64,000 nucleotides of DNA from Arthrobacter sp. Leaf69 (lineage in GTDB: Bacteria; Actinomycetota; Actinomycetes; Actinomycetales; Micrococcaceae): contig NZ_LMLR01000011.1 of assembly GCF_001422645.1 (NCBI RefSeq), positions 317,701-381,700 of the forward strand, written 5' to 3'. Positions 38,260 to 51,887 of the stretch are shown here, piece by piece (position 1 is the stretch's first letter; the number at the start of each line of letters is the position of its first letter). The translations under genes and the position numbers were made by a program. The notes beneath the pieces are model-generated. The model was not told the DNA's origin and made no database searches. It worked only from the letters and a program-made list of their open reading frames with translations.

Positions 38260-38269
38260 CCGCGGCCTC

Positions 38270-38572
38270 TTACGAGGCCAAACGCTCCCGCGGCCGGTGG
38301 CCGGAGTTGGTCGGTGCGCTACCGCGTCCCGGCGGGTTGATCTCGGCCCATACCGCGTCGAGGGAGAGACCGAGGACATCGGCGATCGCCGCGATGGTCG
38401 GGAAGGCAGGGGTCGCAACACGGCCTGTCTCGATCTTCCGGAGGGTCTCCGGTGAGACACGCGCCTCGAGCGCGGTCTCAAGCATCGAGCGCTCTCCCCT
38501 GGCGCGACGCAGCAGGGCGCCGAGGCGTTGTCCGCGCTCGACCTCTTCGGGTGTGAGGGGCAATCTGACCAT
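38270..38572 (-). CDS. small XRE-type helix-turn-helix regulator
   Basis: 100-aa DNA-binding protein made of little more than a HTH_3/XRE domain: RLGALLRRARGERSMLETALEARVSPETLRKIETGRVATPAFPTIAAIADVLGLSLDAV, i.e. five helices with the recognition helix around SPETLRKIETG. It has no second domain except a short Pro/Arg-rich tail. A TAGAAT hexamer ends 7 nt before the ATG (leaderless). It is divergent from an extra methionine aminopeptidase gene, and duplicated octamers in the shared 66-bp region are probable binding sites, so autoregulation and control of map are likely. Confidence 0.88.
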   Translation of the reverse strand: MVRLPLTPEEVERGQRLGALLRRARGERSMLETALEARVSPETLRKIETGRVATPAFPTIAAIADVLGLSLDAVWAEINPPGRGSAPTNSGHRPRERLAS

Positions 38573-38579
38573 GGCTCCG

Positions 38580-38585
38580 ATTCTA
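38580..38585 (-). promoter_or_regulatory. -10 hexamer TAGAAT, leaderless HTH start
   Basis: Ends 7 nt before ATG 38572. Confidence 0.65.
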
Positions 38586-38588
38586 GTA

Positions 38589-38610
38589 CCGGGATAATAT
38601 GGCCGGGATA
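38589..38610. promoter_or_regulatory. paired CCGGGATA octamers in HTH/map divergent promoter
   Basis: Identical octamers CCGGGATA at 38589-38596 and 38603-38610, 14 bp apart, each followed by an A/T-rich step (ATAT, GTTAT). They overlap the likely promoters of both genes and are candidate operators for the HTH protein. Confidence 0.5.
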
Positions 38611-38638
38611 GTTATTGGTTGCGTGAGAAAGGCGCCAC

Positions 38639-39421
38639 ATGATCGAGATCCTGAACTCCACGGAACTGGCCCGGGCACGAGAGGCCGGTGCCCTGGTCGC
38701 GCATATCCTGCAGACGCTGAAGAGCCGCAGCGCAGTAGGCACGAACCTCCTGGACATCGACCGGTGGGCCCGTGCCATGATCACCGAGGCCGGAGCCCTG
38801 TCCTGCTACGTCGACTACGAGCCATCGTTCGGACGCGGGCCGTTCGGACACTACATCTGCACGGCCGTCAACGACGCCGTCCTCCACGGACTGCCCCACG
38901 ACTACAGACTTGCCGACGGCGACCTGCTGACACTCGACCTCGCCGTCTCCAAGGGCGGAGTTGCTGCCGACGCCGCCATCAGCTTCCTCGTGGGCGACTC
39001 ACAGCCTCCGGAAAGCGTCGCGATGATCAGGGCAACCGAACGCGCATTGAGCGCTGGGATTGCGGCCGCCGTGCCCGGAGCCCGCATCGGCGACATCTCC
39101 CACGCCATCGGCTCGGTCCTCAGCGGGGCCGGGTATCCGATCAATACCGAGTTCGGAGGTCATGGCATCGGATCCACGATGCACCAGGATCCGCACGTCG
39201 CAAACACCGGACGGCCCGGCCGTGGCTACAAACTGCGCCCCGGGCTGCTGCTCGCGCTGGAACCGTGGGTCATGGCCGACACCGCCGAACTGATCACCGA
39301 TGCCGACGGGTGGACGCTCCGAAGTGCAACAGGCTGCCGAACAGCCCACAGCGAGCACACGATCGCCATCACCAGCGACGGAGCCGAAATCCTGACCCTG
39401 CCGAAACACGCGCAGCCGTAG
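38639..39421 (+). CDS. map: type I methionine aminopeptidase (paralogue)
   Basis: 260-aa Met aminopeptidase, removing the start Met from new proteins. All five metal ligands of the family are present: Asp in LLTLDLAV (about 100), Asp in AADAAISF, His in GGHGIGSTMH, Glu in LALEPWV and Glu in AHSEHTIAI. It has no N-terminal SH3-binding extension. A second, quite different map lies 100 bp downstream on the other strand. AAAGG precedes the ATG. The divergent HTH gene and the octamers suggest conditional expression. Confidence 0.93.
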   Translation: MIEILNSTELARAREAGALVAHILQTLKSRSAVGTNLLDIDRWARAMITEAGALSCYVDYEPSFGRGPFGHYICTAVNDAVLHGLPHDYRLADGDLLTLDLAVSKGGVAADAAISFLVGDSQPPESVAMIRATERALSAGIAAAVPGARIGDISHAIGSVLSGAGYPINTEFGGHGIGSTMHQDPHVANTGRPGRGYKLRPGLLLALEPWVMADTAELITDADGWTLRSATGCRTAHSEHTIAITSDGAEILTLPKHAQP

Positions 39422-39516
39422 GGCCGGAGCCACGCGTCCCTCCGTACTCCCGGCACCTCACCGCGAATCAAAGGTGAGAACGCGACTTTCCGTTTCCGGC
39501 CAGGTCGACCTTCCCG

Positions 39517-40284
39517 TCAGGGCAGGGTCAGAATGACCGGCCCGTCCTTCGTGATGGCCACGGTGTGCTCGCTGTGCGCGGCACGACGGCCGTTGGCCGA
39601 GCGAAGGGTCCATTCGTCGTCGTCGTGGAAGTAGTCGTCCTTGCCGCCCAGGATCAGCATCGGCTCGATCGCGATGACCAAGCCCTCGGTCAGCTTGATG
39701 CCGCGGCCGGGCCGGCCGTCGTTGGGAACGTGCGGCTCGGCGTGCATGGTCGTGCCGATCCCGTGCCCGCCGTGGTCCGCCAGCAGCCCGTAGCCGGCGC
39801 GGCGCGATGCCCCGCCGATCGCATAGCCCAGGTCCCCCATCTTGTTCCCGATCCGGGCCGCCTCGATCCCGCGGGCGAGGGCCGCCTCGGTGGCTTCGAT
39901 CAGCGCCTGGTCCACCGGGTCCGATGCACCCACGATGAAGCTGATCGCTGCGTCCCCGCACCAGCCCTCAAGAAACGCACCGCAGTCCACGCTGAGCAGG
40001 TCACCGTCCTGGAGCCGGTAGTCGTTGGGGATGCCGTGCACCACGGCGTCGTTGACCGACGTGCAGATCACCCCGGGAAACGGCACTGACGCCCACCGCG
40101 GTTTGTAGTTCAGGAAGGCCGGAGTGGCCCCTGCGGCGGCAATGGTCGCGGCGGCCAGCTGGTCCAGTTCTTTCAGGGACACGCCGACGGCGGCGGCCTC
40201 CCGGACGCGTTCCAGCGTGTTGGCCACCACCCTGCCGGCCTCGCGCATCAGGGCAATCTCGGCGGGGCTCTTGATCATCGACAT
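39517..40284 (-). CDS. map: type I methionine aminopeptidase
   Basis: 255 aa, likely the housekeeping-type or a second MetAP. Ligands: Asp in LLSVDCGAF, Asp in CGDAAISF, His in GGHGIGTTMH, Glu in IAIEPML and Glu in AHSEHTVAI. N-terminus MSMIKSPAEIALMREAGRV is the normal beginning of short MetAPs. TAGAGT ends 7 nt before the ATG, so it is probably leaderless. It is convergent with the paralogue and divergent from the AlkD-like gene. In many actinobacteria the housekeeping map sits beside secY-adk; that region is not in this window, so which copy is essential cannot be said. Confidence 0.93.
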   Translation of the reverse strand: MSMIKSPAEIALMREAGRVVANTLERVREAAAVGVSLKELDQLAAATIAAAGATPAFLNYKPRWASVPFPGVICTSVNDAVVHGIPNDYRLQDGDLLSVDCGAFLEGWCGDAAISFIVGASDPVDQALIEATEAALARGIEAARIGNKMGDLGYAIGGASRRAGYGLLADHGGHGIGTTMHAEPHVPNDGRPGRGIKLTEGLVIAIEPMLILGGKDDYFHDDDEWTLRSANGRRAAHSEHTVAITKDGPVILTLP

Positions 40285-40291
40285 GCGTCCA

Positions 40292-40297
40292 ACTCTA
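40292..40297 (-). promoter_or_regulatory. -10 hexamer TAGAGT, leaderless map start
   Basis: Ends 7 nt before ATG 40284. Confidence 0.55.
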
Positions 40298-44909: not shown

Positions 44910-44949
<40 letters not shown>

Positions 44950-51487: not shown

Positions 51488-51887
51488 GGTGGATGGGTTG
51501 ACCGATACGCCGGGTTCTGTGTTCCCGTGCCGTTACCAGCACAGGAGTAGCGGCCATCCATCTACGAACGCCGTTGCCGACGCCCTCCAGCAGCCTACCC
51601 GGACACTCGGGCGGGCAGCCCTCAAACGTGTCCTGTCTGGCCTTGCTCCGGGTGGGGTTTACCTAGCCTTCCCGGTCACCCGGGAAGCTGGTGGTCTCTT
51701 ACACCACCGTTTCACCCTTACCTGCCCTGCGGCCCGTGCAAGCACACGCCGCATGCAGGCGGTCTGCTCTCTGTGGCACTGGCCTGCGGGTTACCCCGAG
51801 TGGGCGTTACCCACCACCCTGCCCTGCGGAGCCCGGACGTTCCTCGAGCCACTTCCGTGGCGCGCGGCCGCCTGGTCAACCCATCCG
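51488..51887 (-). ncRNA. rnpB: RNase P RNA (M1-type)
   Basis: Catalytic RNA that trims tRNA 5' ends. On the minus strand the type-A landmarks appear: GAGGAACGTCCGGGCTCC near the 5' end (CR I), the GC-rich P-domains, GGTTACCCG-like stretches, and CACAGAACCCGGCGTATCGGTCAACCC at the 3' end, which pairs with the 5' GGGTTGACC. The upstream minus-strand TAGAAT hexamer (51899-51894) fits a start near 51887. A protein frame open across this region is meaningless. Confidence 0.94.

Follow-up and report, generated by a model that had tools for sequence, protein, structure and literature searches.

We consider it likely that a 100-residue XRE-type helix-turn-helix protein (HTH), encoded in a 64,000-nt stretch of DNA from Arthrobacter sp. 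Leaf69 (the window), is the dedicated local regulator of an auxiliary type I methionine aminopeptidase (MetAP), which we designate map2, and that it most likely represses map2 together with its own gene. The two genes are divergent across a 66-bp spacer, which contains a putative operator overlapping each of the two -10 elements. Features of this region are collected in Table 1.

Table 1. Features of the HTH-map2-map3 region, in window positions
Feature	Position	Strand	Remarks
XRE-type HTH regulator	38270..38572	-	100 aa; N-terminus Met-Val-Arg
HTH-gene -10 element TAGAAT	38580..38585	-	7 nt ahead of ATG
Putative double-box operator core, 35 bp	38584..38618		present in 64/65 promoters
Octamer box 1, CCGGGATA	38589..38596	+	recurs in orthologous promoters
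Octamer box 2, CCGGGATA	38603..38610	+	overlaps map2 -10
map2 -10 element GATAGT	38607..38612	+	conserved columns; relatives mostly TATAGT or GATAGT
map2, auxiliary type I MetAP, 260 aa	38639..39421	+	TIGR00500; ligand positions intact
map3, resident related MetAP, 255 aa	39517..40284	-	TIGR00500; without operator; outside cassette
Inserted cassette (GNAT stop to map3 stop)	38260..39516		~15 bp in empty sites L292, L294

The divergent pair and its relatives

A sequence-only reading of this DNA had described two complete type I map genes, convergent and 95 bp apart, one of them divergent from a 100-aa XRE-type regulator, with twin identical octamers in the shared promoter and all metal ligands intact in both enzymes. 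The coordinates in Table 1 bear out this arrangement (the gap between map2 and map3 is 39422-39516), and both proteins exceeded the cut-off of 171.35 bits for TIGR00500, the NCBIfam model of type I MetAP, with 212.7 bits for map2 and 253.4 bits for map3. The seven ligand and catalytic positions (metal ligands plus the catalytic His), named after those of E. coli MetAP, to which we take them to correspond, are kept in map2, in map3 and in 195/195 aligned homologues and, because of this invariance, map2 should be an active enzyme. The map3 protein is 51% identical to map2. In the 4.14-Mb source genome we found seven M24-family matches, and 2 of the 5 others (L003 and L004) are, from their alignment with map2 and map3, also type I MetAPs.

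The domain of the regulator scored above the Pfam cut-offs for HTH_31 (PF13560, 37 bits against 27) and HTH_3 (PF01381, 32.1 bits against 23), and the protein is the sole member of its family in the source genome. Its closest solved structure was 2ofy (E 3.4e-27), a putative Rhodococcus XRE regulator of the same family, solved without a function, which was matched by Foldseek at E 3.7e-8 (70% identity over 74 columns, 0.9 A) and in structural comparison at Z 15.0; the 2ofy chain, of 86 residues, lacks the tail of the 100-aa HTH. After 2ofy, HTH was structurally nearest to ClgR and to restriction-modification controller proteins (3f52, 5woq, 1y7y, 3clc), which share the small XRE fold but have low sequence identity to HTH and different targets. 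Such controller proteins autoregulate from paired boxes. 2ofy has served as a control in folding simulations (PMC9861041). Ala-Ser C-termini were common among HTHs of the 100-aa type (45/64; 27/28) and occurred in only 21 of 118 in the broader set described below; we considered the C-terminal Leu-Ala-Ser of HTH as a possible ClpP-type degron. Phage records searched with HTH gave no match. Among the PADLOC defence models, map2 had no match at E <= 0.01, and HTH matched one HTH model at E 0.0053.

Conservation of the pair was examined from both sides. In a scan of species genomes, HTH lay directly upstream of and divergent from map2 in 65 of the best 80 of 557 map2 loci, a count that includes two frameshifted HTHs (L008, L019) and one without a start (L068); the nearest named locus among the same best 80 was that of Arthrobacter sp. 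OVS8, with a map2 95% identical to ours. With HTH as query, matches at E <= 1e-3 were present in 143 of 296 genomes drawn from the class Actinomycetia. Of the 125 matches listed at E <= 1e-15, 118 were read (those left out were G233:C1:1915291, G181:C250, G249:C240, G196, G241, G250 and G159), and 91 of these HTHs were divergent from a type I MetAP, with spacings of 32-180 bp (median 65), the other 27 (for example, L122, L124, L167 and L168) being without a divergent MetAP neighbour. A draw of 296 genomes from the whole phylum gave 16 matches at E <= 1e-15, all in Actinomycetia. The conserved loci span eight orders, and the hosts include Streptomyces, Micromonospora, Frankia and Arthrobacter. 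The sequence-only reading had staked the pair on a conserved neighbourhood outside this species, and such a neighbourhood was found in both surveys. HTH and map2 thus form a divergent two-gene cassette that is common to many actinobacteria.

A putative operator and its retention with the regulator

The octamer CCGGGATA, whose two promoter copies start 14 bp apart at 38589 and 38603, occurs 3 times in the window against 1.05 copies expected; since 7 of 100 shuffles also reached three, this count alone is weak evidence. Chance was ruled out by conservation: all but one of the 65 orthologous promoters have CCGG[G/T] boxes with the same 14-bp spacing, the exception being L020, which lacks a regular double box and was excluded from the operator matrix. 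A 35-bp core is likewise conserved in 64/65 double-box promoters, where the CCGG columns were fixed by the search anchor and the remaining columns alone constitute free evidence. Allowing up to 3 mismatches, the double box was found at one site in the 4.14-Mb genome (0 in the reversed control), and we therefore rejected a double-box regulon in this organism. For single boxes, the same genome (G000) was scanned with one palindrome pattern, allowing two mismatches, and gave no match.

The -10 of map ([T/G]ATAGT) sits within box 2. With a spacer of 43 bp, map in L013 and L049, both from Arthrobacter sp. ok362, starts 6 nt downstream of TATAGT, which places its transcription start. On the other strand, 116 of the 118 HTH genes have TAnnnT upstream at a distance of 6 or 7 nt from the start codon, a motif seen at 2 of 944 control positions farther from the gene, and because of this short distance the HTH gene is predicted to be leaderless. 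The map3 ATG is preceded at 7 nt by TAGAGT, and the CCGG box is absent there.

Two main kinds of pair could be distinguished. In the first, HTH accompanies a map2-type MetAP, in many cases with the double box; in the second, an HTH of the 2ofy kind accompanies a MetAP nearer to map3, and 54 of 56 such pairs have a single CCGG palindrome, with the consensus AATAACTATACCGGTATTAGTATC from 47 loci. In 6 of the 91 pairs (L204, L206, L211, L215, L217 and L218, from families f10 and f25), the CCGG palindrome is replaced by GGTAT-n-ATACC, a variant operator with outward-facing half-sites.

Using a matrix built from the 64 double-box loci, we compared promoter scores between loci with and without the regulator. 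The 28 genus loci with HTH, which were the best-scoring of the 71 genus genomes with matches at E <= 1e-24, all scored 55 to 68 and thus keep the operator. Of 12 genus genomes chosen for lack of HTH, nine have a map2-type MetAP (67-83% identical), two have map3 only and one has neither, and all nine map2-type promoters scored -61 to -23, that is, the operator has been lost; mononucleotide shuffles gave a median of -52 and a 99th percentile of -29, which L300 alone of the nine exceeded. Similar results were obtained for the 16 loci, from the best 80 of 557, that lack an intact local HTH and whose whole genomes were searched for one. Where an unlinked HTH was present elsewhere (E <= 6e-22), 7/7 promoters scored 28 to 61; where the genome had no HTH (a weak 35% match in one of the nine genomes was disregarded), 8/9 scored -52 to -12. 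The difference was significant by the Mann-Whitney test (p = 0.001, uncorrected for relatedness), and several of the losses may represent a single event. The exception, L073, has a full operator (score 52), and the search of its genome found no HTH. Operator remnants were seen in three of the eight low-scoring loci, L018, L062 and L087; the last of these keeps one box and is, like L073, an exception to the co-retention.

Separation of the two genes gave a comparable picture. In four of the five such genomes whose map promoter was inspected (G075, G134, G174 and G200), the site persists at the distant map, with HTH and map ~9 kb apart in G134, ~10 kb in G174 and 2 kb in G200, where the site reads CGGTATAGTTATTGG; the fifth, G132, has a partial site only, ~100 bp upstream. 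In L008, L019 and L068, a defective HTH stands beside an intact map with its boxes kept, as though the regulator were at times the first to go; further HTH copies that are frameshifted, truncated or split were seen in G346 and G407. With adjacency so widely conserved (91/118), and with a dependence of operator on regulator that is judged by co-retention only, the pair has the character of a putative divergent autoregulator-enzyme module.

Insertion of the cassette beside map3 and its spread

The sequence-only reading suggested that the regulator-map pair could be a conditional switch of N-terminal processing. This remains the reading that we prefer, and the results above agree with a widely conserved unit in which the octamers behave as operator. 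The convergent second map gene is not part of that unit. The order GNAT-cassette-map3 was found in the window, in L008, and in L240/L288 and L310 (the last three from one genome), whereas GNAT adjoins map3 without the cassette in five genus loci (L290-L294), of which L292 and L294 have ~15 bp between the GNAT and map3 stops. Three of the five empty-site genomes (G387, G421 and G430) carry the pair elsewhere, and among the 28 genus loci L240-L267, map3 lies beside map2 only in L240. We therefore rejected a designed convergence; because GNAT-map3 sites without the cassette exist, the cassette was inserted beside a resident map gene, and the convergent pair is an accident of that insertion in this lineage. 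No clear terminal repeats were seen at the cassette ends, and an imperfect inverted pair (I1), with one arm at the end of map2 and the other at that of map3, reflects the homology of these genes.

Within the genus the cassette is patchy (71 of 150 genomes at E <= 1e-24). In 18 genomes from outside the genus, map2 was 76-90% identical, versus 47-56% for another MetAP of the source genome (C1:442270), a contrast that is somewhat biased because the genomes were picked for a good HTH match; the corresponding values in G002, of the same genus, were 88% and 90%, and no C1:442270 ortholog was found in G022. A relative at E <= 1e-60 was present in 27 plasmid records, in 21 of them over 80% identical, and in the two of these records whose loci were inspected, HTH was nearly whole (residues 1-93) in one and cut (1-37) in the other. 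A tree of 80 map2 proteins needed 25 changes of taxonomic order where 7 suffice. Transfer of the cassette between lineages is likely on these grounds, and falls short of proof because good support was obtained for only 8 of the 77 inner branches of the tree.

Other features of the window may be recorded here. A peptide deformylase gene (PF01327; 44965-45537) lies ~5 kb from the cassette; this enzyme acts just before MetAP. The intergenic region between acyl-CoA dehydrogenase and deformylase contains a perfect ACAGCA hexamer tandem repeat (6.7 copies, 44910-44949), ~15-55 bp ahead of the deformylase ATG, whose copy number might vary. An RNase P RNA (class A; 51490-51883) and a TPP riboswitch (1906-2003) are both on the minus strand.

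Proposed control of map2 and candidate signals

In the scheme that we favor, an HTH dimer would bind the CCGG-centred boxes across both divergent -10 elements and, while bound, would silence map2 along with its own gene; release of HTH would then provide extra MetAP and keep up N-terminal methionine excision. Repression is the simplest reading because a protein on the boxes would cover both core promoters. Movement of the pair among actinobacteria as a small cassette would fit a conditional benefit, for example survival under inhibition or metal starvation of the housekeeping MetAPs, with map2 as a backup; nothing in our results pointed specifically to either fumagillin-like inhibitors or a shortage of metal as inducer.

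A rival explanation, which we think somewhat unlikely, is that map2 is a resistant duplicate, less sensitive than its housekeeping counterparts to some soil MetAP inhibitor or chelator, and that this inhibitor, directly or indirectly, releases HTH. The patchy occurrence of the cassette, its presence on plasmids and its hosts in lineages rich in antibiotic makers are consistent with such a role. So are 2 differences among the enzymes: map2 has Trp after the Glu-Pro ligand motif, as do 118 of the 195 homologues, where map3 and the genome's two other aligned MetAPs have Met; and in map2 and map3 the loop before the conserved Cys is six residues longer than in L003 and L004. A parallel may be drawn with Streptomyces, which has an inducible, resistant second tryptophanyl-tRNA synthetase, so that there too an essential actinobacterial enzyme has a conditional paralogue; the enzyme and its control are different, however, and resistance is only conjectured for map2. 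Against the proposal, searches of the open-access literature for self-resistance through MetAP and for MetAP inhibitors from actinomycetes gave no such case.

A special form of the autorepressor reading, rather improbable in our estimate, would make the N-terminus of the repressor itself the sensor. HTH consists of an arm (residues 1-7), helices (8-78) and a low-confidence tail from residue 84, and has no ligand domain. All 118 HTHs begin with Met-Val-Arg, while position 4 is occupied by ten different residues; the Val2 and Arg3 codons are freely chosen among the relatives, and therefore the constraint acts on the protein. HTH shares its fold with lambda repressor (1lmb), whose N-terminal arm contacts DNA. 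Valine is a second residue that permits cleavage by MetAP and, because the invariant Met-Val, although cleavable, is processed poorly by MetAP, the repressor may sense methionine excision. The evidence on substrate quality comes from human cells, in which proteins that start with M[V/T] are reported to be poor substrates; when MetAP is limiting, they are cleaved less efficiently and are the first to fail (PMC5325365). Methionine-free HTH would bind the operator; at low MetAP capacity, HTH retaining its methionine would accumulate and let go, and map2 would be induced until processing recovers, giving a closed feedback loop on a mobile two-gene cassette. However, an invariant arm is also expected from DNA contact alone, and solo HTHs carry the identical arm. 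For a repressor that senses MetAP through its own N-terminus, we found no precedent in the open-access literature.

The autorepressor reading must also be weighed against activation, in which HTH on the boxes would recruit polymerase to a map2 promoter without a -35 element. Our promoter and terminator scan returned 0 and 0, with no sigma-70-type site, and no -35 is conserved ahead of the map2 -10 in the aligned double-box promoters; without a clear -35, an activator would fit too. In addition, HTH-less loci of the genus differ upstream, where a CTTG conserved in most of them might be a new -35. Nevertheless, the box centres lie at ~-14 and ~-28 from the inferred map start, within the core promoter, and intact map genes stand beside the frameshifted or truncated HTHs of L008, L019 and L068, so that we judge an activator improbable. 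That HTH and map2 are functionally unlinked neighbours and the octamers meaningless, as their unremarkable count in the window might suggest, is scarcely credible given that pair, operator and co-retention are conserved across loci of eight orders.

Auxiliary MetAPs are not new. S. coelicolor is credited with three map genes and S. avermitilis with four, and YflG of B. subtilis is described as a second, dispensable MetAP of low expression with YvoA as a possible weak repressor (PMC1266368). YflG thus resembles map2 as a second functional type I MetAP with a possible repressor, the activity of map2 being predicted; YvoA, unlike HTH, is of GntR type and is associated with N-acetylglucosamine genes, and neither a dedicated divergent partner nor a cassette is described for YflG. 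We found no description of the HTH-map pair in the open-access literature and, as far as our searches show, this regulated MetAP module is apparently undescribed, although its general kind is already known.

MetAP is usually viewed as a drug target, and N-terminal methionine excision as a constitutive housekeeping process. The wide occurrence and apparent mobility of a switch that serves a spare MetAP suggest that in soil the capacity of this enzyme is frequently under challenge; where MetAP inhibitors are used, the spare enzyme is a possible bypass that deserves attention. If the repressor does sense through its N-terminus, there would be a homeostat for a co-translational modification.
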